From: Bacillus sp. es.036
GTDB lineage: Bacteria; Bacillota; Bacilli; Bacillales; Guptibacillaceae
Direction: 5' to 3'
Length of the DNA: 64,000 bases
Assembly (NCBI RefSeq): GCF_002563635.1
Contig: NZ_PDIZ01000001.1
Location: 1,612,001-1,676,000, forward strand
Shown here: positions 10,118 through 56,457 of the stretch, piece after piece
Numbering within the stretch: position 1 is the stretch's first letter
Layout of the letters: each line of letters starts with the position of its first letter
Program-made: the position numbers and the translations under genes
Notes under the pieces: generated by a model
Told to the model about the DNA's origin: nothing
The model's input: only the letters and a program-made list of their open reading frames with translations
The model's database searches: none

Positions 10118-10477
10118 ATACCTCACCTTCCCCTCAAAAAATGGATGAATTTATCTATCTATATCTTTCAACGCTTCAATCACTATACTGCTTACACATA
10201 CATTGAAATACATAAACATTATTTTCTGCATCACCCCTGCTCTTTTGAAATAAGAGGTTTACTTGTTGGAGATAAGCTCCCAGATTGCTTATAAGGAATT
10301 TATATTAGATCAGTTTCTAGAGTCCATCGTAAACGTCTAACCCACTCCTGTCTAACTTCCTAAGGTGCTCAACTGAAGAGTGAATATTATACTCACAAAA
10401 GTCCTAATTCGCTCCAATATTTTGATACAATGTAATTAACAATAACTCGAAGTATTTGCAGAAAGGATTAATTCACT
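10118..10477. other. Intergenic left edge of the cassette array
   Basis: A 360-bp stretch with no convincing gene. It holds the first, degenerate array site (10276-10293) and the leader of the plus-strand gene at 10478. A short plus-strand frame at 10103-10294 has no ribosome site and overlaps the hydrolase start. Confidence 0.5.
10276..10293 (+). repeat. Cassette site 1 (degenerate)
   Basis: GATAAGCTCC then CAGATTGCTTAT. It resembles the right half of the common hairpin plus core, and is the leftmost copy found. Confidence 0.45.
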
Positions 10478-10873
10478 TTGGTATTTGTTTTAAGGATGAT
10501 AGCAGCTTTTCTTTCATCAACTATTGCAGGAGTGTATATCGTAGGTGACCTCTTATCTGGTATATTTATTTTTTTACCCATCTTTATCCTTGTTGCAGTT
10601 CCTGTTTCGCTCTTTGTTGATAGATTTAGTGAAGAAAGAAAAAGCAAGCAAAGAATGTATATTATGAAGCTCTTTTATTACTTTATATCAGGTATTTTAG
10701 CAGGTTGTTTAATGATTGTTATGTTTGGTATAGGCGGCGATTTTACAACCATAGATATGCCTTCAGTAATATTAATCACTCTATGCTGCTCAATATTATA
10801 TTATCATTTTCTTCTATTGCTTAAAAAATGGCTAAAATGGTATAAAAACGTCCCATTGCCTGTCTCAAAATAA
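10478..10873 (+). CDS. Small polytopic membrane protein, unknown
   Basis: A 131-residue protein with about four membrane helices and a basic C-terminus; I do not recognise the family. The TTG start has AAAGGA ten bases upstream. It is one of only five plus-strand genes in the array and carries its own terminator just after the stop. Confidence 0.6.
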   Translation: MVFVLRMIAAFLSSTIAGVYIVGDLLSGIFIFLPIFILVAVPVSLFVDRFSEERKSKQRMYIMKLFYYFISGILAGCLMIVMFGIGGDFTTIDMPSVILITLCCSILYYHFLLLLKKWLKWYKNVPLPVSK

Positions 10874-10908
10874 GGTAGAGAACATCCTAGATGGATATTC
10901 TCTACCTT
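10872..10908 (+). terminator. Intrinsic terminator
   Basis: An 11-bp stem AAGGTAGAGAA / TTCTCTACCTT overlapping the stop codon of the plus-strand membrane protein gene. Confidence 0.8.
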
Positions 10909-10964
10909 ATCTCTATCCTGGGAAACGCATAAGAACAATAAGGGTTTATAGGTCTTGCAGAATC

Positions 10965-10981
10965 ACTCCGAGATTATGGAA
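10965..10981 (+). repeat. Cassette site 2
   Basis: Core ACTCCGAGATTATGGAA, 15 bp from the stop of the lipoprotein gene at 10997. Confidence 0.75.
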
Positions 10982-10996
10982 TATCTCAAAACTGAT

Positions 10997-11443
10997 TTAT
11001 TTTTCAAATTCGATGTTTGGTAGAAGCGTAAGATTAACTTGTTTGTTTAAAATATTTGTTACATCTTTTACCGACCCTTTTTCCAATTGGTATGTTAGGC
11101 TATCTTCTGGTAAAAGACTTTGAATAAATCCTTCTCCATCTTCAGTAATCCATAAATGAAATCCTTTATTATTGCTTCCTGCAATAATAAGATCGTAGGT
11201 CAATACTGAAGGGGTTTTAATAACCTTTTGATCATCAAGTTCTTTTGCATTGTTGGTGGCACCAACGAATACATCTACTTCTTCTTTCTCTTTAAACGCT
11301 ACTTCTTCTGATTGTGTTTCATTTCCTATCCAAAAGCTTGCTTCTACTTTTTCAACATTTTCTAATTCATTTGTTGAACAGGCGCTTAGAGATATTGAAA
11401 GTATAAGTATAAGTATAATCATAATCAATAAATTTCTTTTCAT
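10997..11443 (-). CDS. Predicted lipoprotein, unknown function
   Basis: 148 residues with a lipoprotein signal (hydrophobic stretch then SLSAC, lipidated Cys22) and an acidic extracellular domain. No family recognised. AGGAGG precedes the ATG. It fills the cassette between sites 2 and 3. Confidence 0.7.
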   Translation of the reverse strand: MKRNLLIMIILILILSISLSACSTNELENVEKVEASFWIGNETQSEEVAFKEKEEVDVFVGATNNAKELDDQKVIKTPSVLTYDLIIAGSNNKGFHLWITEDGEGFIQSLLPEDSLTYQLEKGSVKDVTNILNKQVNLTLLPNIEFEK

Positions 11444-11512
11444 TATTTGTCCTCCTGGTTATTCTACAATCCTTCCTAAAGCCTACATAGACTTACAATT
11501 TATTACGCAAAC

Positions 11513-11529
11513 GCTCCGATTTAACAGAA
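11513..11529 (+). repeat. Cassette site 3
   Basis: Core GCTCCGATTTAACAGAA, preceded by the CCTAAAGCCTACAT-type left arm (from about 11475). Confidence 0.75.
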
Positions 11530-11558
11530 CAATGGACTCAATTCCATATTCTTGAGTT

Positions 11559-11574
11559 GCCCGATAATCTGGAA
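11559..11574 (+). repeat. Cassette site 4 (degenerate)
   Basis: Core GCCCGATAATCTGGAA followed by GACTTGATACCGAGATAG, the usual right flank. Site 51 has the same TTGAGTTGCCC lead-in. Confidence 0.55.
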
Positions 11575-11710
11575 GACTTGATACCGAGATAGATCTTGAA
11601 GTAGATTTTAAACTAAAGCACCAGTTAGACTAAAGGATTAACAACGGTGACGGTGAACTCTATAATAATTAATGGGATTTTTTAGTTTAAAAAACTAAAG
11701 GAGGATTCTA

Positions 11711-12160
11711 ATGAATAATATTTTCGAGATCAAGCATACAGATGAAATATTAAATCGTATCGAAAACTTAAATGTAAATTCACAAGCAAAATGGGGTGAA
11801 ATGGATGTTTCTCAAATGTTAGCTCATTGCACATCTTTCCAAGATATCGCAATGGGAGATTCTTTCCCTAAAAGAGGTTTGTTAGGATTATTAGTAGGTA
11901 GATTTGCAAAACCCATCTTTTATAATGACAAACCTTTAGACCAAAATATGCCGACTACTCCAACCATTTTAATTACATCTAAAAGAGATTTTGAAGTTGA
12001 AAGAGAAAAACTAAAACAAAAAATAATAACATTTCAAAAGAATGGACCAGAGTCTTGTACAGATCATCCACATCCTTTTTTCGGAAAACTTACTTCCGAA
12101 CAATGGGGAAAAGGCATCTACAAGCATCTTGACCACCATTTAAAACAATTTGGAGTTTAG
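11711..12160 (+). CDS. DUF1569 (DinB-like) protein
   Basis: A 149-residue protein of the DUF1569 family, related to the DinB/YfiT four-helix metal-binding fold. Clues are MLAHC near residue 36 and the C-terminal block FFGKLTSEQWGKGIYKHLDHHLKQFG, where the two His residues are the expected metal ligands. The function of the family is unknown; DinB-like proteins include thiol-dependent transferases. AAAGGAGG at 11697-11704 fixes the ATG. It is a plus-strand cassette gene. Confidence 0.8.
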   Translation: MNNIFEIKHTDEILNRIENLNVNSQAKWGEMDVSQMLAHCTSFQDIAMGDSFPKRGLLGLLVGRFAKPIFYNDKPLDQNMPTTPTILITSKRDFEVEREKLKQKIITFQKNGPESCTDHPHPFFGKLTSEQWGKGIYKHLDHHLKQFGV

Positions 12161-12268
12161 TGGCAGGAGTTTAAATATACCGTACCATCTTAAACTAACC
12201 TGCTTTGTCAATAGCCCTGATATTCCTTGTGCTTATATAAAAAAGAGCTAGGACTCTATTGAAGAATC

Positions 12269-12285
12269 GCTCCGAGATTGCTTAA
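12269..12285 (+). repeat. Cassette site 5
   Basis: Core GCTCCGAGATTGCTTAA. Confidence 0.8.
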
Positions 12286-12308
12286 TAACTTTTTATTTTC
12301 TTTTAGAA

Positions 12309-12503
12309 TTACTTTGTCGTCTCTTTTTTCTCTTTCCAATGACTTACAATAAGACTTGAAGAGAAAATTAACAATAGCAACATAAAAATTGAGGAGATTA
12401 GTGATATAATTCCTGTTTGATTACTAATGTCATTATAGAGTTCAAACAAAAAACAAGGAATTAACAGTATGCTTATTACAAATATAAGAACTTCAACTTT
12501 CAC
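12309..12503 (-). CDS. Two-helix membrane protein, unknown
   Basis: 64 residues with two membrane helices and a charged tail (KEKKETTK). The GTG at 12501-12503 is preferred, with GGGGGG eight bases upstream; an earlier GTG would add six residues. No family recognised. Confidence 0.55.
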   Translation of the reverse strand: MKVEVLIFVISILLIPCFLFELYNDISNQTGIISLISSIFMLLLLIFSSSLIVSHWKEKKETTK

Positions 12504-12598
12504 CTTTCGTACCCCCCACATTACAAATTTTCCCTTTTGATTATATCCATTCTACGGATGGGCATGTAAATTGTTTCACTAAATTTCCAAAATTTACA

Positions 12599-12691
12599 AT
12601 ACAAATTGTTTCAAAAAATCCGCATAACTCAATCTTTAATTCCAGCTAAAAGGAGCCTATCTTATTAAAGATAAGCTCCGAGATAATTGAA
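12599..12691 (+). repeat. Cassette site 6 (long form)
   Basis: Left arm AATTGTTTCAAA, then AACTCAATCTTT, the GGAGCCTATCT..AGATAAGCTCC hairpin, and core GCTCCGAGATAATTGAA at 12675-12691. Confidence 0.85.
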
Positions 12692-12719
12692 TATGAGATA
12701 AAACTTATTTCTGTCGAAT

Positions 12720-12950
12720 TCACCACTCAATATCTTCATAAATATCAGAGATAAATCTTCCATCAACTTTACCCTCTTCGAACAATTGTGTCGCTGTACT
12801 AAACTCTTGAGTAACTGAGCCTTTTACTTTTGTTAAGTAAAATCTCTCTTCATCTTGGCTAATCCAATATTCATTATTTCCATATTTGAAATTGTACTCT
12901 TCTCCAATTTGAATTCCATTTTGAAACTCTTTGAACTGATCTTTAGTCAT
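12720..12950 (-). CDS. Small soluble hypothetical protein
   Basis: 76 acidic residues, predicted beta-rich, rich in Phe, Tyr and Glu, no signal or membrane segment. GGAGTGATGAA precedes the ATG. Not recognised. Confidence 0.6.
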   Translation of the reverse strand: MTKDQFKEFQNGIQIGEEYNFKYGNNEYWISQDEERFYLTKVKGSVTQEFSTATQLFEEGKVDGRFISDIYEDIEW

Positions 12951-13046
12951 TTCATCACTCCATTCAAGGGTTTCAACTAGAGCTTGTAAAAATCTAAACG
13001 AAAATATTGAGAAATAGAGTTGATATTCATGTTTTATCCAACATTA

Positions 13047-13063
13047 GCTCAGATTTACTTGAA
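13047..13063 (+). repeat. Cassette site 7 (degenerate)
   Basis: GCTCAGATTTACTTGAA followed by GACTCGTATTCGAAG, the usual right flank. Confidence 0.5.
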
Positions 13064-13115
13064 GACTCGTATTCGAAGCAATCAGATATATTTTGCTGGA
13101 AATTCTTACTCAGGT

Positions 13116-13352
13116 TTACGCTAGATTACTTAAAAAAGTAGAAATCCCAACGAAAATACTAAATCCAGCAACAAGGAATGATGTGAAAGCGACTGGTTTT
13201 CGTTTTTGAAATTCAGTAACCCCCATAACAAGAAACATTCCACCCATTGATAGCATTAAATAAGGCAATATAATTTCAGCTGTTCCAGTTATCAAACCAT
13301 AAATAGATAGAGAAACTACAATAGTTGCCAAAATTATTCTAATTATTTTCAC
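13116..13352 (-). CDS. DUF3953-like membrane protein
   Basis: 78 residues with two to three helices and the internal motif VMGVTEFQKRK. It is a clear paralogue of the protein at 25427-25657, which has VMGIEEFQKERK. The family is known only as DUF3953 in Bacillales and its role is unknown. The GTG at 13350-13352 is preferred, with GGGGGAA upstream. Confidence 0.65.
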   Translation of the reverse strand: MKIIRIILATIVVSLSIYGLITGTAEIILPYLMLSMGGMFLVMGVTEFQKRKPVAFTSFLVAGFSIFVGISTFLSNLA

Positions 13353-13441
13353 CAGCACTTCCCCCGCAATAATGAAATTAGGTACTTTACTAAAGTCCCC
13401 TGTAATTCAGTAAAAATGAGCGCAAACCTCTCTAGATTAAC

Positions 13442-13458
13442 GCTACGATTTAATTGAA
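13442..13458 (+). repeat. Cassette site 8
   Basis: Core GCTACGATTTAATTGAA, one mismatch in the GCTCCGA block. Confidence 0.65.
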
Positions 13459-13526
13459 TAATCTCTAGTTTTAATCTCTCAATTCTATTTAGTAAGAAAA
13501 TAAAATTTCGCTTCTTTAACATATGT

Positions 13527-13685
13527 TTATTTTTTATAATCTGGATTAATATATTTCTTTAATATACTTGGATTTACGAACCGTATTGAAACTACTTCCC
13601 CACAATCCAAACAGACAGTTAGTTCTTTTTCAAACTCTGGTACTTTTACAAGTGAATCTCCACCACAGCTTTTGCATTGTTGCAT
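13527..13685 (-). CDS. Mini zinc-ribbon protein (52 aa)
   Basis: Too short for a normal gene caller. It encodes 52 residues beginning MQQCKSCGGD with a second pair CLDCG near residue 25, so four Cys form one zinc ribbon; the tail is basic. The function is unknown; such peptides bind nucleic acid or protein. GGGGAGATATAAG precedes the ATG. It is the only gene in its cassette (sites 8-9). Confidence 0.65.
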   Translation of the reverse strand: MQQCKSCGGDSLVKVPEFEKELTVCLDCGEVVSIRFVNPSILKKYINPDYKK

Positions 13686-13823
13686 CTTATATCTCCCCAC
13701 CCTTGAAGGTATTTGTTTTTCATTATTTAATAAATTCCATTTAAATGGGCATTAAACCCTTTCGAAGTATACTGTCCTAGTATTAAATTAAACAAAAAGG
13801 AACGTAATCCTTTTCAAATCAAC

Positions 13824-13840
13824 GCTCCGATATTATTGAA
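13824..13840 (+). repeat. Cassette site 9
   Basis: Core GCTCCGATATTATTGAA. Confidence 0.8.
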
Positions 13841-13857
13841 GATGTGCTGCTACATAA

Positions 13858-14157
13858 TTAGTTAATTAACCCTTGCGCCAACCATTGATCAAAATACTTT
13901 TGATAGCCCATTTCAGTGGCTGTGGCTGTCATTGTATATTCCTTATCCTTAATCTTAAAGGTATGCAACCCTGACAGAGCTTCATAAGTTGGGTTTGTTT
14001 TAACATCACCGAAAAGTGTTTCGAAAGTAATCACATCAACTGAATTTGTCGTTCCGTCTTCCGAGGTTTCAAGAAGAATAAAATCAACTTTTCCATACTC
14101 ACTATTGTCCTTAAATATCAAACCAGCTTTCTTTAATGACATATATAATTGATCCAT
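13858..14157 (-). CDS. Soluble hypothetical protein
   Basis: 99 residues, mixed alpha/beta, with no signal peptide or recognised domain. GGGGAGCC precedes the ATG. Single gene of its cassette. Confidence 0.6.
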   Translation of the reverse strand: MDQLYMSLKKAGLIFKDNSEYGKVDFILLETSEDGTTNSVDVITFETLFGDVKTNPTYEALSGLHTFKIKDKEYTMTATATEMGYQKYFDQWLAQGLIN

Positions 14158-14249
14158 ACTTTGGCTCCCCTCCCTTGTTAGTGCATTTATGAGTTACTCT
14201 TGATTTTCCTTTTTTACCTTGATTACTCTTGAACACTCACCGAGTCTTC

Positions 14250-14345
14250 AATACCAATTATTTCAAATCAGTATGAATAACTCAATCTTTCATTTCACAT
14301 CAAAAGGAGCCTATCTAATTACAGATAAGCTCCGAGATACTGGAA
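14250..14345 (+). repeat. Cassette site 10 (long form)
   Basis: AATACCAATTATTTCAAAT arm, hairpin GGAGCCTATCT..AGATAAGCTCC, core GCTCCGAGATACTGGAA at 14329-14345. Left boundary of the duplicated 312-bp cassette. Confidence 0.88.
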
Positions 14346-14376
14346 GATGGTAAAAAACGATCCTTCTGTCTTAAGG

Positions 14377-14568
14377 TTAAGACTTTTCTTCTTTTGATAA
14401 CAGTCCAACAATGAACATGACAATAGCATATATAATAATCGTAGTTATTAATAAAGTTAATGGATTAAAATGATCATGCAAAAATGGGGACAAAACTATT
14501 ACTATCACCAATAGTATTGCACCAGCTATTTTTTGGTTTTTCTTCTTTTTTGCAACTTCCATTTTCAA
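14377..14568 (-). CDS. Two-helix membrane protein, copy 1
   Basis: 63 residues: a basic N-terminus (MEVAKKKKNQK) and two helices split by a short HDHFNP loop. The TTG start has GGGAGG six bases upstream. A nearly identical protein is encoded at 48900-49091 in an equal-length cassette. Function unknown. Confidence 0.7.
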   Translation of the reverse strand: MKMEVAKKKKNQKIAGAILLVIVIVLSPFLHDHFNPLTLLITTIIIYAIVMFIVGLLSKEEKS

Positions 14569-14640
14569 TGATAACCTCCCTTTATTCCTGGGTTGCTCTT
14601 AAATAATGAAATAGCTGCAAAGACACCTTACTCAACATTC

Positions 14641-14657
14641 GCTCCGAGATTATGGAA
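14641..14657 (+). repeat. Cassette site 11
   Basis: Core GCTCCGAGATTATGGAA. Left boundary of the duplicated 382-bp cassette. Confidence 0.85.
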
Positions 14658-14701
14658 GACTTGATTTCTACATATTTTCAAATAAAAGTATATTATATAT
14701 A

Positions 14702-14776
14702 CTACTTTAAAAGAAGCCATATCACTACTAAGATGATAGCTATTATCCCCCAAAACAAAACTTGTTTATTTCTCAA
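14702..14776 (-). CDS. 24-residue membrane peptide, copy 1
   Basis: A tiny frame (MRNKQVLFWGIIAIILVVIW then LLLK) forming one hydrophobic helix with a basic N-terminus. The TTG start lies behind AAGGAAGGTGAAAGA. It is followed upstream on the same strand by the 57-residue gene at 14808 and repeated in the twin cassette at 27826. Small size limits certainty, but conservation of both frames in the two copies supports it. Confidence 0.5.
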   Translation of the reverse strand: MRNKQVLFWGIIAIILVVIWLLLK

Positions 14777-14807
14777 TCTTTCACCTTCCTTCAAAGTAAG
14801 TGATCAT

Positions 14808-14981
14808 CTAAGTTGATCGTTGTTTTCTTTTTTTATTTCGTCCAATTAAAATAGCAATGAATAGGCAGCCTAGCCCTACTATATTCATAATGATATTACC
14901 TAAGTTGCCTAAGTCATTAATTTTCAACCCGACTAAAAAACCACCAATCAAAATAAGTGGAATAACTATAAAAAATCTCAA
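14808..14981 (-). CDS. 57-residue two-helix membrane protein, copy 1
   Basis: Starts MRFFIVIPLILIGGFLVG, then a short hydrophilic loop (KINDLGN), a second helix and a strongly basic tail (GRNKKRKQRST). TTG start with GGGGG upstream. Twin at 27932-28105. Not recognised; the architecture resembles small stress or toxin-like membrane peptides, but nothing proves that. Confidence 0.6.
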   Translation of the reverse strand: MRFFIVIPLILIGGFLVGLKINDLGNLGNIIMNIVGLGCLFIAILIGRNKKRKQRST

Positions 14982-15022
14982 AATTATTCCCCCGAACCTA
15001 TTATTATGTTTACTACAGAATT

Positions 15023-15039
15023 GCTCCGAGATTGTTGAA
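15023..15039 (+). repeat. Cassette site 12
   Basis: Core GCTCCGAGATTGTTGAA. Right boundary of the 382-bp cassette; identity with the twin stops inside this core. Confidence 0.85.
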
Positions 15040-15041
15040 TA

Positions 15042-15374
15042 TCAACTGATTATTTTTCCTTTTTTACTAAGTAAAAAAAAGATGATTGGATTAATAATAC
15101 TAAAAATTAAAATGATCAAGAACATATAAGTAGTCATTTCATCGCCACCTAAACCTAGTTCATCAACAATTATTGCATCATAGTATAGTAATTGACTAGA
15201 TGCAATCACTGAAACGATTGATAGTCCAATAACTGATAAACTCTCAGCTTTTATCTTTAGTTGAGGTACAGTGATGATTAACAACAGAAAGAAATTAGCT
15301 ACAATAAATGTTACAAAAATGGGTCTCAATAAAGTGAATACACCTGCAATTTCAAACGAATTGTATGTATACAT
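15042..15374 (-). CDS. Polytopic membrane protein, unknown
   Basis: 110 residues with three or four membrane helices and a basic end (SKKGKIIS). GGAGGATTTCT precedes the ATG. The stop codon is only 2 bp from the site 12 core. No family recognised. Confidence 0.6.
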   Translation of the reverse strand: MYTYNSFEIAGVFTLLRPIFVTFIVANFFLLLIITVPQLKIKAESLSVIGLSIVSVIASSQLLYYDAIIVDELGLGGDEMTTYMFLIILIFSIINPIIFFLLSKKGKIIS

Positions 15375-15412
15375 AGAAATCCTCCATCATTTTCATTCGT
15401 AGTCCCGCACTC

Positions 15413-15508
15413 TAATTCCAATTATTTCAAACCGATGAGCATAACTCAATCTTTTATTTCAACTAAAAGGAGCCTATCTTATTACAGATAAGCTCCGAGA
15501 TTGCTTAA
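15413..15508 (+). repeat. Cassette site 13 (long form)
   Basis: AATTCCAATTATTTCAAA arm, AACTCAATCTTT, hairpin, core GCTCCGAGATTGCTTAA at 15492-15508. Confidence 0.85.
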
Positions 15509-15575
15509 GACTCGTAGTATCTATTGTATGCACTAATAGTAACTCCACTGAAATTGAAAAAAGCTGCTCTCAATT

Positions 15576-15755
15576 CTATTTTTCTTTCTTTCGGAAATAT
15601 TTCCATTTGTATGCGGTACTTAATGCCAATAAAGCGATAATTAGAAAGGACTTAAAATAAGGGTTTGATACTGTGAAATATACGAAAAAAGTAGATATTA
15701 CTATAAATAAGTAAACAAGTAATAAAGATAAAGGTAAAGGCTTATCTGACTTCAA
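15576..15755 (-). CDS. 59-residue two-helix membrane protein
   Basis: Begins MKSDKPLPLSLLLVYLFIVI, has a second helix (SFLIIALLALSTAY) and a basic aromatic tail (KWKYFRKKEK). The TTG start has GAGGTGA at good distance. Single gene between sites 13 and 14. Not recognised. Confidence 0.6.
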   Translation of the reverse strand: MKSDKPLPLSLLLVYLFIVISTFFVYFTVSNPYFKSFLIIALLALSTAYKWKYFRKKEK

Positions 15756-15854
15756 AGTATCACCTCTTTAAATTAATTATTTATAGTCTCTTTCTAATAC
15801 AGTAACAAAGGAGTAAGATGACTTAATTCTCCTACCAACATTCCAGAATCATCT

Positions 15855-15911
15855 CCTAAACCTACATTGAGAGCTTACTTTTTATTAAGTAAACGCTCCG
15901 ATTTAATGGAA
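15855..15911 (+). repeat. Cassette site 14 (short form)
   Basis: CCTAAACCTACATTG arm, hairpin GAGCTTACTT..AAGTAAACGCTC, core GCTCCGATTTAATGGAA at 15895-15911. Confidence 0.85.
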
Positions 15912-15925
15912 GAACGAAACATTCA

Positions 15926-16174
15926 TTATATTAAGGATACGTATAATTCTTCTAGAACTGCTAGGGACATAATAATAGCGGTACCTATATAAAAATAGCC
16001 ACTTTTAACTTCACTATTCTTTACTTTTTCAATTCCTGTCAGCAGAAAAAACACTATTAAAAATGAAAAAATTATAGATATGGGTAATTCAATGGCTTTA
16101 ATAAAAAAATGTGTAATACCCACCCCAATTCCAATAATAGCGAGTATATAATTTACTATTTTTAAAAGCTCCAC
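15926..16174 (-). CDS. Small membrane protein, unknown
   Basis: 82 residues with three hydrophobic segments. The GTG start is preceded by GGAGGGATAAAT. Not recognised. Confidence 0.6.
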   Translation of the reverse strand: MELLKIVNYILAIIGIGVGITHFFIKAIELPISIIFSFLIVFFLLTGIEKVKNSEVKSGYFYIGTAIIMSLAVLEELYVSLI

Positions 16175-16295
16175 ATTTATCCCTCCTAACTTTCTTGAAG
16201 AGCAAATAGGTTATTAGACGGGAATTCAGGCTTATTCCATTAATGCTGCCCGTAATTAACTTAAAAGAAAAGAGCATAGTCCTTTCTAGATTAAA

Positions 16296-16312
16296 GCTCC
16301 GATATTCTAGAA
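16296..16312 (+). repeat. Cassette site 15
   Basis: Core GCTCCGATATTCTAGAA; left stem AGAGCATAG pairs with the AAAGCTC side. Confidence 0.8.
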
Positions 16313-16362
16313 GACTTAGTTTCAAGATAAATTAGTACTTTAGCATTCTAAAGATACTTAAA

Positions 16363-16998: not shown

Positions 16999-17069
16999 AA
17001 CAAACACTCCCAAATTTATTGCATGTCACAAACGCTGATATGCATTTCAATTTTCTGTACAATCCATTA

Positions 17070-17164: not shown

Positions 17165-17189
17165 CAATCGCTTCTCTATGAATTAATAA

Positions 17190-42672: not shown

Positions 42673-42673
42673 C

Positions 42674-49300: not shown

Positions 49301-50554
49301 TTAGAATTCGAAATCCCCATCCTTCATTAGCAGGACTTCAGCTCCACCTTCTTTAATTCCCTCCACATTTATGTCTTCGGTACCAAAGGTCACATTGACT
49401 AACAAAAGTGAAGTATTCAGACCCGCTGCCTTCAACTCTTTCTCAGATTGGTCATTGCCATTTTGAATGTTGGAAGGAGATGCATTTCCAATTCCAATAT
49501 GACAGGAAGTATTCTCATCAAATAAGGTATTGTAAAAAAGCGTATCTGCCTGAGCAAGAGGAGATTTATTAGACACCAGGGCAATTTCACCTAGATAATG
49601 TGATCCTTCGTCTGTTTCGATGAGGTTTTGTAACACTTCCTGTCCCTTTGCAGCAAAATAGTCGGTAACCCGTCCATCATTAAAAATTAGATAAAATTCA
49701 TCGATGACACTTCCCCCATAGATAAGAGGTTTGGTACCTACCAATTTGCCATTCACCTTATTTTTATGAGGAGCAGTAAATATTTCTTCCGTAGGAATAT
49801 TCGGAAAGAAAGGGATTTCATCTTTATCTATGACACCCCCACCGATATAGAGATGATCTTTAGGTAGACCAACTACTAAATCAGTTCCAAGGCTATTTGT
49901 AAAATGCAGGGATTCAAATTGGCACTCGTTTAGGATCTTTTTTCGAGACTCGAAGGATCTATTGTGACTCTCCCAATCTTTTATAGGGCTTTTCCCATCT
50001 GCCCGTGACCCTTTTAAGATTAGTTTCCATAAGGATTGTAAAGCTTCTTCTTTACTTAGGTTGGGGAATACTTTCATTGCCCATTCAACACTCGGGACAG
50101 TTAGAAGACACCAGCGCACCTCGTGTGACATAATTTTCGCATTATGATCCCTCAATTTGGTACGAGAAGCTTTTTGGAAACGATTTATCTTTTCTGTAGA
50201 AACTTCCTTAAAGACCTCTAAGTTTTCAGAAATAATATGGATGTAAGCAGCACCTGCATCCTCCCATTCCTTAAAACGAGCAGCCTGCCAATCAGGAAAG
50301 TGATCGATGACAGTATCTGCTGCGTGTAAGAAAAACTCTTTGGTAGACTGTTCATCTGTCCAGTCTATAAATACATTGGACGCTCCTGCCTCGTAGGCCA
50401 CCGTTTGGATTAAACGTGCAAACGTAGCATGTTGTATATCACTATGAATAATCAATAATTGATTTTTCTGCAGGTTTACACCAGCTCGCACAGCAAGTTC
50501 TGCATACTTTTTTAACTGTGCTTCACTTATAAATTCATATATTCCTTTAATCAT
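49301..50554 (-). CDS. Peptidase M29-family protein lacking two metal ligands
   Basis: 417 residues, full length for the thermophilic aminopeptidase (AmpS/AmpT) family. Conserved blocks are PNIPTEEIFTAP (ligand Glu near 256), LGEIALVS (Glu323) and ENTSCHIGIG (His352). The canonical THVDFMIGS, which gives a His and an Asp ligand, reads LLVNVTFGT at about 384-392, so Leu385 and Asn387 replace them. The enzyme is probably inactive as a peptidase or uses different chemistry. GGGGAG precedes the ATG. Single gene of its 1.5-kb cassette. Confidence 0.82.
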   Translation of the reverse strand: MIKGIYEFISEAQLKKYAELAVRAGVNLQKNQLLIIHSDIQHATFARLIQTVAYEAGASNVFIDWTDEQSTKEFFLHAADTVIDHFPDWQAARFKEWEDAGAAYIHIISENLEVFKEVSTEKINRFQKASRTKLRDHNAKIMSHEVRWCLLTVPSVEWAMKVFPNLSKEEALQSLWKLILKGSRADGKSPIKDWESHNRSFESRKKILNECQFESLHFTNSLGTDLVVGLPKDHLYIGGGVIDKDEIPFFPNIPTEEIFTAPHKNKVNGKLVGTKPLIYGGSVIDEFYLIFNDGRVTDYFAAKGQEVLQNLIETDEGSHYLGEIALVSNKSPLAQADTLFYNTLFDENTSCHIGIGNASPSNIQNGNDQSEKELKAAGLNTSLLLVNVTFGTEDINVEGIKEGGAEVLLMKDGDFEF

Positions 50555-50639
50555 TTACTATCTCCCCTGTGATGTTCTTGGATAACTACACAATAGGACC
50601 CTGCCACTACTTTAGCTAACCTGATTCGTTAGCATAACA

Positions 50640-50680
50640 AGCGATAGCCAAAGTGCAGCTATCGCTCCGAGTTTGTTTAA
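50640..50680 (+). repeat. Cassette site 57
   Basis: Hairpin GCGATAGC..GCTATCGC (as at site 36), core GCTCCGAGTTTGTTTAA at 50664-50680. Confidence 0.85.
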
Positions 50681-50880
50681 TAATTTTTATCCAAAAGTAG
50701 TAGTAAATAGCTGCTTCCTAAAAGAAGAAATGCAATTTGAGTTAAAGCGTAAACTGTTAACTCAACTGGATTCAGCTTCCTTTCCCGTTTGATTTTCTTA
50801 AAATGAAAATAATAATAAATTGCACATATGAGCAACACAACTCCTGATACTTGAAATATAATCTCTAATATACCAATCAC
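50677..50880 (-). CDS. Two-helix membrane protein, unknown
   Basis: 67 residues with two helices split by HFKKIKRERKLNP. The GTG at 50878-50880 has AGAGG eight bases upstream. Its stop overlaps the end of the site 57 core. Not recognised. Confidence 0.58.
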   Translation of the reverse strand: MIGILEIIFQVSGVVLLICAIYYYFHFKKIKRERKLNPVELTVYALTQIAFLLLGSSYLLLLLDKNY

Positions 50881-50949
50881 AAATATCACCTCTAGCCCGA
50901 TTGTTGTTTGAACAGAAACTACCTTCTTAAAAATCCTGCTCTACTCGTC

Positions 50950-51044
50950 AATACCAATTATTTCAAAATACTTCTAATAAATCCATATTTCATTTCACAA
51001 TAAGGAGCCTATCTTATTAAAGATAAGCTCCGATGATAACGGAA
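50950..51044 (+). repeat. Cassette site 58 (long form)
   Basis: AATACCAATTATTTCAAAA arm, hairpin, core GCTCCGATGATAACGGAA (one extra base) at 51027-51044. Confidence 0.85.
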
Positions 51045-51149
51045 TAAACTGTACACTACAAGAATCCTAAGATGTTCTCTTTTATTGGAACATAGAACGT
51101 AATTAATAAGGTTTTCTGTTGATAGTATATTCCTAATCAATCGAACGAA

Positions 51150-51866
51150 TTAAACGAAGGCTTTAAAGCGAATCTGATTGTAATAATGTACTATTCTCCA
51201 AAGAATAAATAAAACACCAGAAATCGCGAAGAAAATATAATAAAAAGGTTCATATTTCAAAAAGTCATAATTTGCATATTCCCACTCAACATACCAAGTA
51301 TTGTCTCCAGCGACACCTTGTCTCATCAAACCAGACTCTCCAATACCTTCACGCCCCTGAAGAAATAACTTTTTACTGGTATTATCTCCTTCTTCTTGAG
51401 TATTTTTAACAACAGCAAAATAACTAATATTATTAAAGATTTCTGAGTTCCGTTCCACCATATCTTTTAGCGCTCTTTTATCATCAGCATTTAATTCACC
51501 TTTGTTTTCATAGGTTTTTACTACGTGAGACATCAAATCAGAAGTTTCTCTGTATGTATTATCTTTCATAGTTAAACTAATTGAAACGACTAATCCAATC
51601 AACAAAATGGCAATAGCAGAACGCATTAACCATTTTGCAAATTTATTTTGATACTGAAAAATGGTTAGTAAACCTTTTGTAATTTGCTTTTCATCTCCAA
51701 ACCTCTCTAGCGCAATTGAAATCGCTTCTTGCTCAGATTTTCCTTCTAACTTTAATTCCTCAACAGCCTCCACTATATGTGAGCGCATTTCTTGTTTTAA
51801 ATCTTTAGCTTCTTGGCCACTTACATTGGCATAGATCGAATTTACAAATTCATCAATTTGCTTCAT
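51150..51866 (-). CDS. HAAS-domain membrane protein paired with PadR
   Basis: 238 residues. The N-terminal ~70 form a HAAS / DUF1700-like helical domain (LKLEGKSEQEAISIALERFGDEKQITKGL). One helix (SAIAILLIGLVVSISLTM), an extracellular part of about 100 residues and a final helix (YYIFFAISGVLFILW) follow. HAAS proteins are typically co-encoded with PadR regulators, as here (14-base overlap). Role unknown, perhaps envelope-stress signalling. Confidence 0.75.
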   Translation of the reverse strand: MKQIDEFVNSIYANVSGQEAKDLKQEMRSHIVEAVEELKLEGKSEQEAISIALERFGDEKQITKGLLTIFQYQNKFAKWLMRSAIAILLIGLVVSISLTMKDNTYRETSDLMSHVVKTYENKGELNADDKRALKDMVERNSEIFNNISYFAVVKNTQEEGDNTSKKLFLQGREGIGESGLMRQGVAGDNTWYVEWEYANYDFLKYEPFYYIFFAISGVLFILWRIVHYYNQIRFKAFV

Positions 51867-52203
51867 TTTCTTCTCCTCCTTCTAAAAATGAATCAATAAT
51901 GCTTTTTACAAATTGCCATTCTTTACGTTTTTCTTGGTAACCTGCTTTACCCAGAGATGTAAGTTTATAATATTTTCTTCTTCCACCTGGACCTTGTTCA
52001 TCACCCCAATACGAAGAAATCCATTTATTTTTTTCTAATCTTTTCAAAGACAGATAGAGTGTCCCCTCTTTTAATTCAAACTGCTCTTCGCTTTTTAATC
52101 TAACTTGTTTCGCTAACTCATAGCCATACATATCTCTTATACATAGTAACGATAGGATTAGGGTATCTATATGCCCTTTCAAAACTTCTTTGTTAATTTC
52201 CAT
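51853..52203 (-). CDS. PadR-family regulator
   Basis: 116 residues: the PadR winged helix (GHIDTLILSLLCIRDMYGYELAKQVR..EGTLYLSLKRLEKNKWISSYWGDEQGPGGRRKYYKLTSLGKAGYQ) is complete with the characteristic GGRRKYY wing. AGGAGGTGAAC precedes the ATG. It overlaps and likely controls the HAAS-domain gene. Confidence 0.9.
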   Translation of the reverse strand: MEINKEVLKGHIDTLILSLLCIRDMYGYELAKQVRLKSEEQFELKEGTLYLSLKRLEKNKWISSYWGDEQGPGGRRKYYKLTSLGKAGYQEKRKEWQFVKSIIDSFLEGGEENEAN

Positions 52204-52278
52204 CTGTTCACCTCCTATACTAATTTAAAATACATTACCTAATAATGCAAGGTATACTAATAATAAATGATTAAAAAA

Positions 52279-52319
52279 GAGGTAATTCCTAAATGTGGAA
52301 TTACCTCTGATTAATGAAG
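52279..52319 (+). repeat. Cassette site 59 (degenerate)
   Basis: Hairpin AGAGGTAATTCC..GGAATTACCTCT followed by CTGATTAATGAAG; parallels site 52, which has the same stem family. Confidence 0.55.
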
Positions 52320-52359
52320 ACGATTTTCAATTTTTAAGCTGCTTTATTATTCTAGAATT

Positions 52360-52376
52360 GCTCCGAGATAACGGAA
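52360..52376 (+). repeat. Cassette site 60
   Basis: Core GCTCCGAGATAACGGAA. Confidence 0.87.
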
Positions 52377-52383
52377 TAAGGAG

Positions 52384-53130
52384 TTACTGCGCCTTGAATT
52401 GTTTGTAAATTAAAGTTACTGCTTCAATAATCTTGTTATCAGCATCTAGATTACTATTCCTATTTGGTAAATTAGTAGCTCCTAAAACAAATACATAGGG
52501 ATAATTATTGAAATCACCTATTATTCCTAAATCCACTACAACATTTTCTAAACCACCAGTCATATGATTTAGATGATGTGTAGGTATACCCTCTATCTCT
52601 CCTTTTTGTCTAATTAATCCGTTGATGATTGGAGTCCATAATAAAGGATTCTTCTTGTAGTTTTGAAAAATGTTAAGCATCAAATCACATAGTTGGTCTA
52701 GTTGAGCTTGGTTTTCAGCATTCCGTGGATCCTCAGTAACCGTTATCGATGGATAATAGGTTTTTAATTGGTTGTTTACCTCTTTCCAACCTCCACAAAA
52801 TTCCACAATACTCTTAGCAACATAACTATCGTGGCAAGCAATCATAACCTCAACAGCTTCCCTTAAGGGAAGAGATTCTCGTAATTGGAAATGCGGGTAC
52901 AGTTCTCTACTATCTTCATTTGGATTAAAGAAAATGTCTTTAACAATGTCATCCCAATTGATTAATTCCTCTTCTACCCATTTGGTTACACAAAAACCTA
53001 TTGCAACTTTTGCTGCCGATGCAAGGGGAACGATTAAGTCATTGTTAAATGCAAGTTTATGTATGTCATCTTTGGTAGAATATATTTTTATTCCTACTTC
53101 TCCAATTTCTATTTCTTTTAGCTTCTTCAA
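52384..53130 (-). CDS. Beta-lactamase-like serine hydrolase
   Basis: 248 residues of the serine beta-lactamase/PBP fold: SAAK (Ser-x-x-Lys) at about residues 38-41, a SDN-like position at CHDSYVAK and TGG near 192 in place of KTG. No signal peptide is visible, so it would be cytoplasmic, unlike secreted penicillinases. Cargo could be antibiotic-related or an esterase. TTG start with a weak ribosome site (AGAG). Confidence 0.7.
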   Translation of the reverse strand: MKKLKEIEIGEVGIKIYSTKDDIHKLAFNNDLIVPLASAAKVAIGFCVTKWVEEELINWDDIVKDIFFNPNEDSRELYPHFQLRESLPLREAVEVMIACHDSYVAKSIVEFCGGWKEVNNQLKTYYPSITVTEDPRNAENQAQLDQLCDLMLNIFQNYKKNPLLWTPIINGLIRQKGEIEGIPTHHLNHMTGGLENVVVDLGIIGDFNNYPYVFVLGATNLPNRNSNLDADNKIIEAVTLIYKQFKAQ

Positions 53131-53200
53131 AACGTTCTCTATTTCAACTCACCCACCTTGGCTCTTTACATTCAACTCTTTAAATACTTCCAATCAGTTC

Positions 53201-53293
53201 AATACCAATTATTTCAAATTAGTACATATAACTCAATCTTTACTTTCAAAAAAGAAGCTTATCCTATTACAGATAAGCTCCGAGATACAGGAA
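53201..53293 (+). repeat. Cassette site 61 (long form)
   Basis: AATACCAATTATTTCAAAT arm, hairpin GAAGCTTATCC..AGATAAGCTC, core GCTCCGAGATACAGGAA at 53277-53293. Confidence 0.88.
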
Positions 53294-53341
53294 GATCATT
53301 TTTTCTTCTATAAGCTAGCATAGCTTAAGAAAGTGACTTCT

Positions 53342-53623
53342 TTATTTCCTTCGAAAGTATAGAGCAATGACTAACTGAACTATACCTAAAAAGCCGAAGT
53401 AACTACCTATTGAAAACCCAGTGATATAAAAAGTTATGAATGAAATAACAACTGATGCCAAATTAAGCCTGAACATCAAATCCTTCTTAAATCCTTTAGC
53501 TAAACAAATTAAAAATGCGACGGAAGCTAAAAAGCTTATTCCAAAAATCAAAAACCAAATGGGCAAAACTCTTTCCCAAAAGGCAAATGGGATTATATCC
53601 CCAGACAATAAATATTTAGTCAT
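53342..53623 (-). CDS. Three-helix membrane protein, unknown
   Basis: 93 residues with three helices and a basic end (YFRRK). The ATG at 53621-53623 has GGGG eight bases upstream. Not recognised. Confidence 0.6.
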   Translation of the reverse strand: MTKYLLSGDIIPFAFWERVLPIWFLIFGISFLASVAFLICLAKGFKKDLMFRLNLASVVISFITFYITGFSIGSYFGFLGIVQLVIALYFRRK

Positions 53624-53760
53624 AATAGTCACCCCTTGTTTATTAATTTAGTAACCTCATTTTTACAAGTGGACCTAATTTGACCTAATATTTTTCAAGA
53701 AAAATACAAAAGTTCATAAGGAAATAAAAACTAAAAATATTGTATTGATCTTCAACTTTC

Positions 53761-53777
53761 GCTCCGAGATAATTGAA
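53761..53777 (+). repeat. Cassette site 62
   Basis: Core GCTCCGAGATAATTGAA. Confidence 0.86.
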
Positions 53778-53784
53778 AAAGCAA

Positions 53785-54336
53785 TTATTCAATTGAATAG
53801 AGTATCTCTTCTCTTTTTACACGACTTCCATTTTTATATACCTCAAAATGTGTTGGCTTCTCAGATAATAGGGTTTGTAATACTTTGTGCTGCTCTGCTT
53901 GATTATTATTGTTTACTTGATCTTCTTGGACATATATTTTTAACACTTCTCCATCTAGTTGTAAATTAACCGTTTGGGTTGTCCCCTTTTTAACCTTTGA
54001 ATAGATGGTAAATGCGTGACCAGAATGAGCATCCAAACCGTGTACATATACATCTGGCTCGATATCTTCTACAGTATACTTTTCAAATTTCATAGCTCTT
54101 CCAGTGTAGAAATCAATCATAGTAGGGTCAAATTCTCTTTCAATGACTTTAGCATTGCCCAATGCCCCACCGACTGTGGCTTGTTTTGTAATATCTTCAA
54201 TCACTTGTTTATTAGTTGTTGATAAAGCCTGTGTTGAATTTTTAATATGTACCATCGAAAAAATCAAAACCAATGAGCACACTACAATACACACAGCGAG
54301 AATAGTGATTTTTTTGAAAATTATCTCCCCCCGCAA
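53785..54336 (-). CDS. Membrane-anchored extracellular protein, unknown
   Basis: About 180 residues: one N-terminal helix (ILAVCIVVCSLVLIFSMV) then a soluble outside domain with a repeated beta pattern (VKKGTTQTVNLQLDGEVLKIYVQED). The TTG at 54336 has no ribosome site; GGGGGGAG lies inside codons 2-4, so the true start may be the in-frame ATT just downstream (54322-54324). Not recognised. Confidence 0.55.
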   Translation of the reverse strand: MRGEIIFKKITILAVCIVVCSLVLIFSMVHIKNSTQALSTTNKQVIEDITKQATVGGALGNAKVIEREFDPTMIDFYTGRAMKFEKYTVEDIEPDVYVHGLDAHSGHAFTIYSKVKKGTTQTVNLQLDGEVLKIYVQEDQVNNNNQAEQHKVLQTLLSEKPTHFEVYKNGSRVKREEILYSIE

Positions 54337-54435
54337 TATTAAATTTTAAAATTTCCGGAGAACTATATTATCGTATAGTAACAAACTTATTAATTCCAAA
54401 CTATTTTATTCCTTTATCCTATTCTCTCTACTCTT

Positions 54436-54530
54436 TAATACCAATTATTTCAAAACAATTCTAATAAATCCATCGTTTATTTCAAAAAAAGGAGCCTATC
54501 TTATTAAAGATAAGCTCCGATATTATGGAA
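54436..54530 (+). repeat. Cassette site 63 (long form)
   Basis: TAATACCAATTATTTCAAAA arm, hairpin, core GCTCCGATATTATGGAA at 54514-54530. Confidence 0.88.
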
Positions 54531-54546
54531 GATTGCTCTTAGAATG

Positions 54547-55806
54547 CTAATATTCCTTTTTTTTACTTTGCCACCATTCAACGACCCTTGTTTCGCCAAC
54601 CATATATAGTAATAGCCTTAACAAGGCATAACACGTTAAAAATCCACTGATAATACTAATAAAGAGCATTGTAGCAAATCCTTTTACCATTCCTACACCA
54701 AATAAGAATAGTCCAGCTGCAGCTATTAATGTTGTTAGTTGAGAATCTCCTATTGTTTTAAATGACTTATTGGACGCTTCCATCACACTTTGTTCGAAAG
54801 ATTTCTCAGGCTCAATTTGTTCTTTTAGACGTTCAAATTTTATAATGGTTGCATCGACTGCAATGCCTAATCCAAGTATAAAGGCAGCTAACCCAGTTAA
54901 TGTGAGAACGCCTTCTAGAAAGACAAATATCGCGATTGTTAGATAGAGATAACTAATCAGACAGAGGACCGTTAGTAGCCCTAGCCATCTATAACGCCAC
55001 ATCATATAAGAAGAAATGAGAACCATTCCAATAATTCCAGAGATGATGGTTTTAGTAAGTGCCACCTTTCCTAATTGACCACTCACAGACCGAGAATATA
55101 CTTCCTCTAAAGGAGCTGGTAAATCACCTGTGCTAATCGTTTTTGCGACTAACTCTGCTTCTACCTTTGTAAACTCCCCCGCCAAAGCTATACTTTTGTC
55201 TGACCAATTCCCACTGACTTTGCCATCGAAAAAGATTTTAGAATTTTCTTTTGCTGCCTCTACCTTATAAGAGTCTCCTTGTTCAAAATCGAGCCAGAAT
55301 GCTAAGTTGTCGTTTTCGTACTTTTGAGTAATCTTCTCGATATCAACAGAATCAGACAAATCCATAGTCACAATAGGATATTCTTCTCTAGATGATGGTT
55401 CAATATCAATAGAGTCAAAATCAGTTGATGAAAGTACTAGACTGTCCTCCGTGTCTCGCACCGTGATATTGCCCCCTATTGAGATAAAGGTTCTCATTTC
55501 CTCTTGATCTTTAACACCAGGTATTTGAACTCGAATGCGACTCTCATCTTCAATTGTAACCGTAGGTTCGCTGATACCTAATAAATTAATTCGATCATGA
55601 ATTAATGAAGCCGTTTGTTTTAAGAGATCCTCATTGAGAATTTCTTGTTCCTCATAAGGATCTTGTACTTCATAAAGGATTTCAAATCCACCTTGCAAAT
55701 CCAGTCCTAACTTCACTTCATTTATGAGACTCTTAAACGTAGCGAAAAACAAAGTCAAGATTAACAATATCGTTAAGGTTGTTGAAATAATCCAACTCTT
55801 TTTCAA
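54547..55806 (-). CDS. secD: Stand-alone SecD
   Basis: 419 residues. A first helix and DLQGG at 36-40 (SecD signature), a large extracellular domain (about 45-260) and a block of helices with LGLGIAVDATIIKFERLKEQ (SecD RND motif, normally VDANVLIFERIREE). Bacilli usually encode SecD and SecF as one fused SecDF; here a separate SecD without SecF is cassette cargo. It may assist export of a particular protein or be a paralogue. AAGGGTG precedes the TTG start. Confidence 0.85.
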   Translation of the reverse strand: MKKSWIISTTLTILLILTLFFATFKSLINEVKLGLDLQGGFEILYEVQDPYEEQEILNEDLLKQTASLIHDRINLLGISEPTVTIEDESRIRVQIPGVKDQEEMRTFISIGGNITVRDTEDSLVLSSTDFDSIDIEPSSREEYPIVTMDLSDSVDIEKITQKYENDNLAFWLDFEQGDSYKVEAAKENSKIFFDGKVSGNWSDKSIALAGEFTKVEAELVAKTISTGDLPAPLEEVYSRSVSGQLGKVALTKTIISGIIGMVLISSYMMWRYRWLGLLTVLCLISYLYLTIAIFVFLEGVLTLTGLAAFILGLGIAVDATIIKFERLKEQIEPEKSFEQSVMEASNKSFKTIGDSQLTTLIAAAGLFLFGVGMVKGFATMLFISIISGFLTCYALLRLLLYMVGETRVVEWWQSKKKEY

Positions 55807-55936
55807 ATATAAACACCCTTATAGTAGGAAAGTTCTTTTTTCACTGGTTATGTATTATCAATATTTTTGCTACTCCATTATACCGTACTTAAAGTAATGG
55901 ATTGTTAAATAACAATCCTCTGGATCTTCAATTCTC

Positions 55937-55953
55937 GCTCCGAGATAGCAGAA
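55937..55953 (+). repeat. Cassette site 64
   Basis: Core GCTCCGAGATAGCAGAA, last well-conserved copy. Confidence 0.85.
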
Positions 55954-56006
55954 GATTGACTAACTTAAATTAGTAGGCACAAACGATGGTTAGATAAAAT
56001 AAATGC

Positions 56007-56195
56007 TTAATCATTATCGACTTCGTCTTTGTTATCTTTTATCAATTTCACTATTCCTTTGATATTACGTATTACTTTATAATTCCCTAAAAGAGTAGCT
56101 ACAAAAAATAAACTAGTTGAAATCGAATCAATAAATATTTCAAATTGACTTATAACGAAACAATAAACAAATATCCACACTTTTAAAAATCTCAC
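56007..56195 (-). CDS. Small membrane protein, unknown
   Basis: 62 residues, two hydrophobic segments and a charged tail (IKDNKDEVDND). GTG start behind AAAGGA. Last full cassette of the array. Confidence 0.55.
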   Translation of the reverse strand: MRFLKVWIFVYCFVISQFEIFIDSISTSLFFVATLLGNYKVIRNIKGIVKLIKDNKDEVDND

Positions 56196-56457
56196 AACAT
56201 CCTTTCAATAAATTGTTCAACACTCGCAGAACTGAGATTGTTGAACAAATGAAGATGTAAGAAGTATACCTTTCATAAAATTCTTGGATGGCTTTGAATA
56301 ATTCTGGAGAGGATTCAGCCCCTTTATAAAAACCAACTCCTTTATTTTCCTCGATCTCAATGACCATTAGCTGTCCATCTACTAAGAAAGTAAAAGTTAA
56401 ACCATTCAATTCAGTGGTTTGTTCTGAAGTAAGAAGATTTTTTAGAAAAACAATCAA
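56140..56457 (-). pseudogene. Gene fragment cut by the array right end
   Basis: The first ~70 residues (MIVFLKNLLTSEQTTELNGL, TFTFLVDGQLMVIEIEENKG, ELFKAIQEFYERYTSYIF) look like a real soluble protein, perhaps a small YolD-like or hypothetical protein. From about 56255 the frame runs into the end site and then through the neighbouring gene out of frame, so the natural C-terminus appears to be missing. No clear ribosome site. Confidence 0.45.
56209..56259 (+). repeat. Cassette site 65 (array right end, degenerate)
   Basis: TTGTTCAAC and GTTGAACAA are perfect inverted repeats bracketing GCAGAACTGAGATTG (56226-56240). The core lacks CTCC but keeps GAGATTGTTGAA. Confidence 0.55.

Follow-up and report, generated by a model that had tools for sequence, protein, structure and literature searches.

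A cassette array with dif-like sites and a candidate dedicated tyrosine recombinase in Bacilli

How can a long row of small, unrelated genes, nearly all facing the same way, be built up in a chromosome of the Bacilli, when integrons, the best-known platform for long rows of cassettes, are nearly absent from Firmicutes? The question is raised by a stretch of 64,000 nucleotides from Bacillus sp. es.036 (contig NZ_PDIZ01000001.1, positions 1,612,001 to 1,676,000; hereafter designated the window), which contains an array of gene cassettes delimited by copies of one short site. As analyzed here by comparison of sequences, it is highly probable that conservative site-specific recombination, acting on short double-stranded dyad sites and carried out by a dedicated recombinase, designated Int, gave rise to this array.

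Sites of the array and exchange at their core

A weight-matrix scan of the window detected 55 sites scoring at least 18 bits between positions 10,950 and 55,955, all on the minus strand, and one degenerate site (16.3 bits) at 10,261–10,294 on the same strand; no site was detected in any of 20 mononucleotide-shuffled windows. The training set of the matrix, 99 sites of this genome, includes the window sites, so that the scores of the latter hold partly by construction, which does not affect the one-strand bias or the shuffle result. The exact core (GCTCCGA on the plus strand) occurs 51 times in the window and its complement not once. Sites are spaced 198–3,124 base pairs (bp) apart (median, 526 bp), and cutting the window from site to site by script gave 54 cassettes; in 48 of the 53 cassettes with an open reading frame (ORF) of at least 45 residues, the longest ORF lies on the minus strand. 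A preliminary description of this DNA had placed an array at nearly the same position and had noted the single orientation of its sites and the strand bias of its genes, all of which are borne out. Its literal consensus for the site, GCTCCGANNTTNNNGGAA, was slightly wrong, giving 63 matches at 3 mismatches (12.85 ± 3.13 in shuffled sequences) and none exact. An Rfam search gave no match in the window. Throughout the genome, GCTCCGANNTNNNNGAA gave 66 forward and 4 reverse matches (reversed-pattern control, 0), and the sites form three clusters (1.62–1.67, 2.61–2.63, and 2.77–2.79 Mb) together with a few single places. The window array is one of these three arrays, and related species carry further ones.

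Read in the direction of the genes, the consensus of 106 sites of the genome consists of a left arm TTCMANWATC, a core TCGGAGC, and a right arm KWWTSTKKAATAA. Because the sites were selected by their core, it does not vary in this consensus; among 417 sites of the genus scoring at least 18 bits, it is exact in 373. The arms are complementary in the consensus, forming an imperfect dyad around the 7-bp core, and 2.94 of the 6 inner arm positions pair at the correct register, as compared with 1.38–1.82 at six shifted registers. This layout of arm, core, and arm, which has replaced an early idea of a conserved flanking hairpin, looks like the 11-7-11 core site of a tyrosine recombinase. No Watson–Crick covariation was found between the arms (5.418 of 11 positions within a site versus 5.400 after redealing; z, 0.31; 402 unique arm pairs), and the two ends of one cassette do not match each other either (z, −0.12). 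Pairing in a folded, attC-like site would make changes in the arms track each other, so that arms assorting independently are unlike a folded attC; the missing covariation speaks for double-stranded sites bound arm by arm, though it is not proof. Judged by these features, the site is a dif-like dyad rather than the attC-like site of the preliminary description.

For comparison among arrays, 33 further stretches were taken from genomes of the family. The ends of homology were determined in 27 regions from eleven genomes of the genus, including the source genome and leaving out G001 (two stretches) and G014 (one). Within each of the 26 regions with sites, all of those scoring at least 18 bits (417 in total) lie on one strand; the G013 region has no sites of the TCGGAGC core. 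Among the 1,537 ends of homology between arrays, where pairs are counted from both sides, 913 (59%) fall within 20 bp of a core, as compared with 4.5% of random points. Cut from site to site, the arrays of the genus yielded 390 cassettes (median, 644 bp) in 290 clusters, of which 63 have more than one member. Homologous cassettes kept their neighbour in 12 cases and had another in 281, as compared between species of the genus and not strains of one, and six adjacent cassette pairs recur. Conserved gene order in relatives and sites scattered without exchange of cargo, the two patterns held by the preliminary description to speak against a cassette system, were thus not what was found: gene neighbours differ, the sites are clustered, and homology breaks at the core. 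Within the window itself, clusters 2, 10, and 22 each occur twice, and cluster 2 is also present in array 3 of the genome.

The position of the exchange was further defined with the 373 exact-core sites, among which 118 pairs have the left flank alone in common, 180 the right flank alone, and 4 both flanks; these pairs are not independent. In the left-shared pairs, identity is 0.82–0.99 at positions −12 to −1 and at random level from the first base past the core; the right-shared pairs mirror this, with identity remaining random up to the last base before the core. Since homology breaks to the base at both edges of the core, the exchange lies inside these 7 bp. Collectively, the comparisons show, at the level of sequence, a shuffling of cassettes by site-specific recombination at a short core. 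Together with the failed integron features described below, this supports the preliminary proposal of a site-specific cassette system other than a classical integron.

A candidate recombinase and its distribution

The preliminary description had also predicted a recombinase belonging to the system. A co-occurring tyrosine recombinase, Int (280 residues), was indeed found, not in the window array but 1.1 Mb away from it. Its gene, encoded on the same strand as the cassettes, stands at the 3' end of array 3, whose first site is 1.9 kb away. The genome contains ten Phage_integrase genes. Int has a tyrosine-recombinase domain (PF00589; E, 1.3e-38), and the catalytic residues R, K, HxxR, H, and Y are conserved in nine aligned rows and aligned with those of XerD. 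It is short and can be aligned with the host XerD along its length, with an insertion of at most 2 residues relative to XerD. Its scores are below the NCBIfam cut-offs for XerC (205 versus 335.15 bits) and XerD (197.5 versus 329.6 bits) and just under that for XerA (219.1 versus 220); the integron integrase model TIGR02249 gave 94.8 bits, in two pieces, against a cut-off of 265. The best matches among solved structures are the XerA-like 4a8e and XerD 1a0p. In a tree of 76 rows, which contains no IntI row, a branch (93/98; 92% of 200 bootstrap trees) separates the 50 Int rows from the rest, XerC- and XerD-like family rows included, with a warning of long branches. The host genome also encodes a XerD above its cut-off and a XerC-like protein.

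Orthologues of Int are present at 80–99% identity in G003, G005, and G010–G014 and at 57% in G001, and in G003, G005, G010, G011, and G012 sites lie no more than about 3 kb from Int. A remnant of Int (91% identical over 33 residues) is retained in G009 in a region with sites, and two contigs of P. hwajinpoensis Y2, both carrying 9 sites within 10 kb, are truncated in the opening 20 residues of Int. A stricter site pattern is present in 12 of the 15 family genomes; neither sites nor Int were found in G002. By its position, its clade, and the correspondence of core and clade, Int is very likely the enzyme of the arrays. Two other candidates were considered: a 406-residue ORF at 36,152 of the window was rejected, being an MFS transporter, and a 412-residue tyrosine recombinase (G000:C1:2643535-2644107), about 8 kb past the last site of array 2, was set aside as distant and on a long branch.

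Of 32 named loci, 18 have a site 108–185 bp before int, as compared with 184 of 2,285 background windows (8.1%), and 20 have a further right half-site at −79 to −93, which in G012 is the right arm of a complete site. This Int-proximal site is a candidate for the primary site. Another site follows directly after int in L082, L084, and L089, where int itself may ride as a cassette.

Some sites are also accompanied by promoter-like leaders. The motif GAAATAATTGG, or a variant of it differing by one base, stands within 140 bp after 93 of 416 sites and only once on the other side of the sites. The leader consensus, TTGAGTT-N16-AATAATTGGTATTA, contains TTGAGT and, at a spacing of 17 bp, AATAAT, which resembles a sigma-A promoter. 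A terminator-like hairpin, detected with a crude regular expression, is likewise present at 93 of the 416 sites, and 53 sites have both hairpin and leader motif. In other genera, the leader motif leads directly into the following site at 11 places. Leader and hairpin presumably form terminator–promoter units travelling with or as cassettes, the promoter being predicted from its motif. The repeated leader, standing at the start of many cassettes, was noted in L009–L012 and L122–L141.

Int is not confined to one genus. A protein search of named genomes gave 44 Int loci, most of them 75–86% identical, in Pseudalkalibacillus, Alkalihalobacillus, Sutcliffiella, Fictibacillus, Pontibacillus, Ectobacillus, Rossellomorea, Ureibacillus, Neobacillus, Cytobacillus, and others. 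Among 398 genomes of Bacilli, 35 (24 of 146 genera) have an Int match at 1e-60 or below, 26 of them at 2e-99 or below, some being interrupted. Nine plasmids carry Int relatives at 55–64%, several in pieces; phage records contained only relatives at 33–38%. Two of the relatives, L191 and L192, are on the large plasmids pSP10-266k of Sporosarcina psychrophila and pSHB26 of Peribacillus simplex, and pSHB26 encodes a second tyrosine recombinase 1.3 kb upstream of its Int relative.

At least one site was found by regular expression near 43 of the 50 Int loci with an open frame, with similar arms and mostly other cores. In other genera, the left arm is retained and the core after it reads GGGCGC, GGGTGC, GGGGGC, GGGAGC, GGGCAG, or GGGCCA, its length being 6 bp in most sites seen there, and the right arm is conserved in 109 other-genus sites that were chosen without using it. 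In 35 loci searched with one regular expression, 207 sites are on the Int strand and 2 opposite. The GGGNGC sites of other genera (9 pairs left-shared, 17 right-shared, and 1 both) again indicate exchange at the core; for GGGCRG/GGGCCA sites the numbers are 15, 0, and 3. Among eight Ints at 60–66%, the sites are opposite to int in L150, L152, L153, and L156, where int and array diverge as in classical integrons, mixed in L158, and on the same strand in L157, while two have none. Ints at about 50% have one or two GGGACAC-type sites in three loci. All six Int rows accompanied by TCGGAGC sites are members of a single seven-row clade (100/93), whose seventh member, L079, has none near; G013, although of the same genus, falls outside this clade and has Int surrounded mainly by the core GGGAGC, with no TCGGAGC sites. 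The main core follows the Int clade. The pattern TTCNNNAATCGGGCGC, tried as a test of co-occurrence over the 398 Bacilli, was too loose, matching 88 genomes; of the 7 genomes with at least four matches, 4 have Int at 1e-60 and 3 do not (G201, G234, and G261). In L091, L097, L106, L109, and L112, two cores stand 43 bp apart (GGGNGC, then GGGCAG- or GGGCA-type), perhaps forming a compound site that encloses a terminator-like hairpin.

Proposed mechanism and rival explanations

In the recombination proposed for Int, each cassette would begin (5') with a right half-site and end (3') with a left half-site. Int would bind the two arms of about 11 bp, cut at the edges of the core TCGGAGC, and swap strands there, the core serving as the overlap region. 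Two neighbouring sites in direct repeat would release a cassette as a circle with one site, and the circle, or an incoming array, could be reinserted at any site of an array.

Several observations weigh against this mechanism. None of the ten Phage_integrase genes is in the window, whose array is without Int. Sites occur without a close Int in G006, G007, and G008, and G201 has 10 matches to the GGGCGC site pattern and no Int at 1e-60; conversely, G001 has its Int at 57% but no recognised sites, the Int of G014, near a contig end, has no sites nearby, and no site was detected by the regular expression at 7 of the 50 Int loci (L079, L102, L147, L154, L155, L162, and L164). Outside the genus, cores are often mixed within one locus, and the breakpoint test is weak (7.4% within 20 bp versus 3.6%), with ordinary synteny mixed in. 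A looser pattern revealed one inverted pair of half-sites (G006:C5:548,980-549,028), and no clean insertion pair (A|X|B versus A|B) was seen among the arrays of the genus. Since the core is constant through the selection of sites, the cut can be placed only within its 7 bp. The AlphaFold model of Int is poor (mean predicted local distance difference test score, 65.5) and too weak as a search query.

Among the rivals, exchange between replicons or with taken-up DNA, followed by a resolution that swaps blocks, survives best, although we regard it as unlikely; Int may be the enzyme here as well, and the two explanations overlap. The lack of clean single-cassette insertions and the Int relatives on nine plasmids would fit, as would the cointegration, rather than excision, of Xer sites on A. 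baumannii plasmids described in PMC11705084. On the other hand, the neighbours change cassette by cassette, which would need many more double exchanges than circles.

Mobilization by host XerC and XerD with Int as a passenger, as proposed for the pdif modules of Acinetobacter, is decidedly improbable. The size and dyad of the sites (11-7-11 or 11-6-11) are dif-like, pdif sites being 11-6-11, and the XerD and XerC-like protein of the host as well as the three family genomes with sites but no close Int are consistent with this explanation. The host dif, ACTTCCTATAA-TATATA-TTATGTAAACT, located by a dif pattern, is however a single exact copy, the only one at up to 3 mismatches, and both its arms and its centre are unlike those of the array sites. 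Moreover, Xer is found in almost all bacterial classes according to PMC8138268, yet the arrays and the main core go with the Int branch, and A. baumannii modules were not excised by XerCD in PMC11705084. The host dif is at G000:C1:1520582-1520609, about 100 kb from the start of the window array, which thus lies near the terminus.

A true integron, with IntI acting on folded attC, has very little probability as judged without an attC model: its head-to-tail small genes, mostly in one direction, and its shuffled cassettes would look similar, but Int falls far short of the integrase cut-off (94.8 versus 265 bits) without any insertion beyond 2 residues relative to XerD, the arms do not covary, and the exchange lies at the dyad centre. 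Least probable of all is homologous recombination or insertion-sequence activity between intergenic repeats, such as a family of terminator elements suggested by the terminator-like hairpins arising from many right halves (93 of 416, crude regular expression), since homology stops to the base at the 7-bp core, each region has one orientation, and the right arm is conserved in the 109 sites chosen without it.

The arrays resemble integrons, superintegrons, and clusters of attC sites lacking an integron integrase (CALINs) in their long head-to-tail rows of small, often unknown, mostly co-directional genes with a site after each, in being found with and without a recombinase, and in the exchange of cassettes at a site of one orientation. 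They differ in an Int that is not IntI by the hidden Markov model cut-off and that has no catalytic-domain insertion as aligned with XerD (no IntI sequence was aligned), in a dyad with a 6–7-bp core, no arm covariation, and exchange at its centre, and in a recombinase that may lie at the 3' end of the array, inside it, or opposite. The pdif/xrs modules of Acinetobacter plasmids likewise are bounded by dif-like sites and involve a simple tyrosine recombinase; those, however, use host XerCD and consist of few modules on plasmids, whereas the present chromosomal arrays go with a recombinase branch of their own, differ from the host dif in their sites, and hold dozens of cassettes each, in one orientation. 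Dimer resolution at dif by XerC, XerD, or XerA also depends on a simple tyrosine recombinase, whereas Int forms its own branch beside XerC and XerD and has many sites instead of one.

An insertion in the catalytic domain marks IntI, as stated in PMC8138268 and PMC9024848, and integron integrases form a subgroup with an insertion in the tyrosine-recombinase classification of PMC8138268. In IntegronFinder 2.0 (PMC9024848), Limnochorda pilosa has the only complete integron of Firmicutes, besides a few CALINs, and The Natural History of Integrons (PMC8618304) counts Firmicutes among the phyla with integrons and describes attC as folded. The preliminary statement that integrons are essentially unreported in Bacilli should be softened to this extent, integrons being not wholly unknown in Firmicutes.

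The system is counted as categorically new, since in enzyme and site it agrees with neither of the known cassette platforms; if all cassette arrays were counted as one kind, it would be a variant of that kind. A description of the system was not found in the open PMC literature, a scope that leaves outside most subscription papers and all preprints. With moderate confidence, we favour the broader interpretation of a second, independently evolved integron-like system, in which a Xer-derived cassette integrase would act on double-stranded dif-like sites in Bacilli, would have spread between genera and plasmids, would use clade-specific main cores as a barcode that may decide which arrays exchange, and would have gene-less terminator–promoter cassettes switching their neighbours on. 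If so, cassette evolution arose more than once, and without the trick of folding a single strand. Such a system would explain large variable genome regions, supply small unknown genes by the hundred, and serve as a compact recombination tool with short sites; since the core changes along with the recombinase clade, site specificity can be tested directly.

Cargo of the cassettes and other features

Among the 390 cassettes of the genus, the longest ORF of at least 45 residues is sense in 336 and antisense in 40, and such an ORF is absent in 14. The distance from the stop to the core centre in cassettes with a sense longest ORF has a median of 57.5 bp and a 10th–90th percentile range of 24–619 bp, a looser arrangement than the 10–40 bp given in the preliminary description. 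A Pfam scan of 34 array ORFs, mostly of more than 100 residues, left 14 without a match; among the remainder are GNAT acetyltransferases, DJ-1/PfpI, a beta-lactamase-family protein, TxDE/glyoxalase, a WYL regulator, a CAAX protease, extracytoplasmic function (ECF) sigma factors, FtsW/RodA, an M29 peptidase, MFS, and SecDF-like proteins. The heterogeneous cargo expected from the preliminary description is recognisable in the GNAT and glyoxalase/TxDE proteins, a zeta-toxin-like ORF, and the unmatched ORFs, while its toxin–antitoxin pairs were unconfirmed. The ECF sigma-like gene and the DUF4179/DUF4030 gene sharing one cassette are perhaps a sigma/anti-sigma pair. Coordinates are collected in Table 1.

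Table 1 Features of the window, with positions counted from its first nucleotide.
Feature	Position	Strand	Evidence or remark
Cassette array, 55 strong and 1 degenerate site	10261..55955	-	Matrix scan, core count, cassette cutting
Site with exact core TCGGAGC, lowest coordinate of such sites	11498..11531	-	34.6 bits; 34 bp = 12 left + 7 core + 15 right
Site	14626..14659	-	Left flank equal to that of the 27,750 site over the 30 bp printed; right flank differs
Site	27750..27783	-	Left flank common with the 14,626 site
Top-scoring site of the window	22955..22988	-	45.5 bits
Site at 3' end of cluster-22 cassette (450 bp), one copy	40254..40287	-	
Site at 3' end of second cluster-22 copy	44025..44058	-	Left flank as at 40,254; right flank differs
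Highest-coordinate site of the array, 5'-most in gene direction	55922..55955	-	
63-residue ORF, cluster 2 (313 bp)	14377..14568	-	Cluster also at 48,900 and in array 3
63-residue ORF, second cluster-2 copy	48900..49091	-	
57-residue ORF, cluster 10 (383 bp), copy 1	14808..14981	-	
57-residue ORF, cluster 10 (383 bp), copy 2	27932..28105	-	
102-residue ORF, cluster 22 copy 1	40317..40625	-	
106-residue ORF, cluster 22 copy 2	44088..44408	-	No Pfam match
Zeta-toxin-like gene, against array strand	19353..19952	+	PF06414
GNAT acetyltransferase gene	20108..20638	-	PF00583
TxDE/glyoxalase-like gene	20803..21528	-	PF18711
Cassette with ECF sigma-like gene, middle ORF, and FtsW/RodA-like gene	23046..25272	-	
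MFS transporter gene, against array strand	36152..37372	+	PF07690
GNAT acetyltransferase gene	38667..39209	-	
GNAT acetyltransferase gene	39330..40205	-	PF12746
Cassette with ECF sigma-like gene and DUF4179/DUF4030 protein gene	46488-48120	-	
Cassette gene with Beta-lactamase2 match	52384-53130	-	PF13354, 57.8 bits
Neighbouring pair of glycoside hydrolase family 31 genes that also encode carbohydrate-binding modules, shortly beyond the array	57007-63685	-

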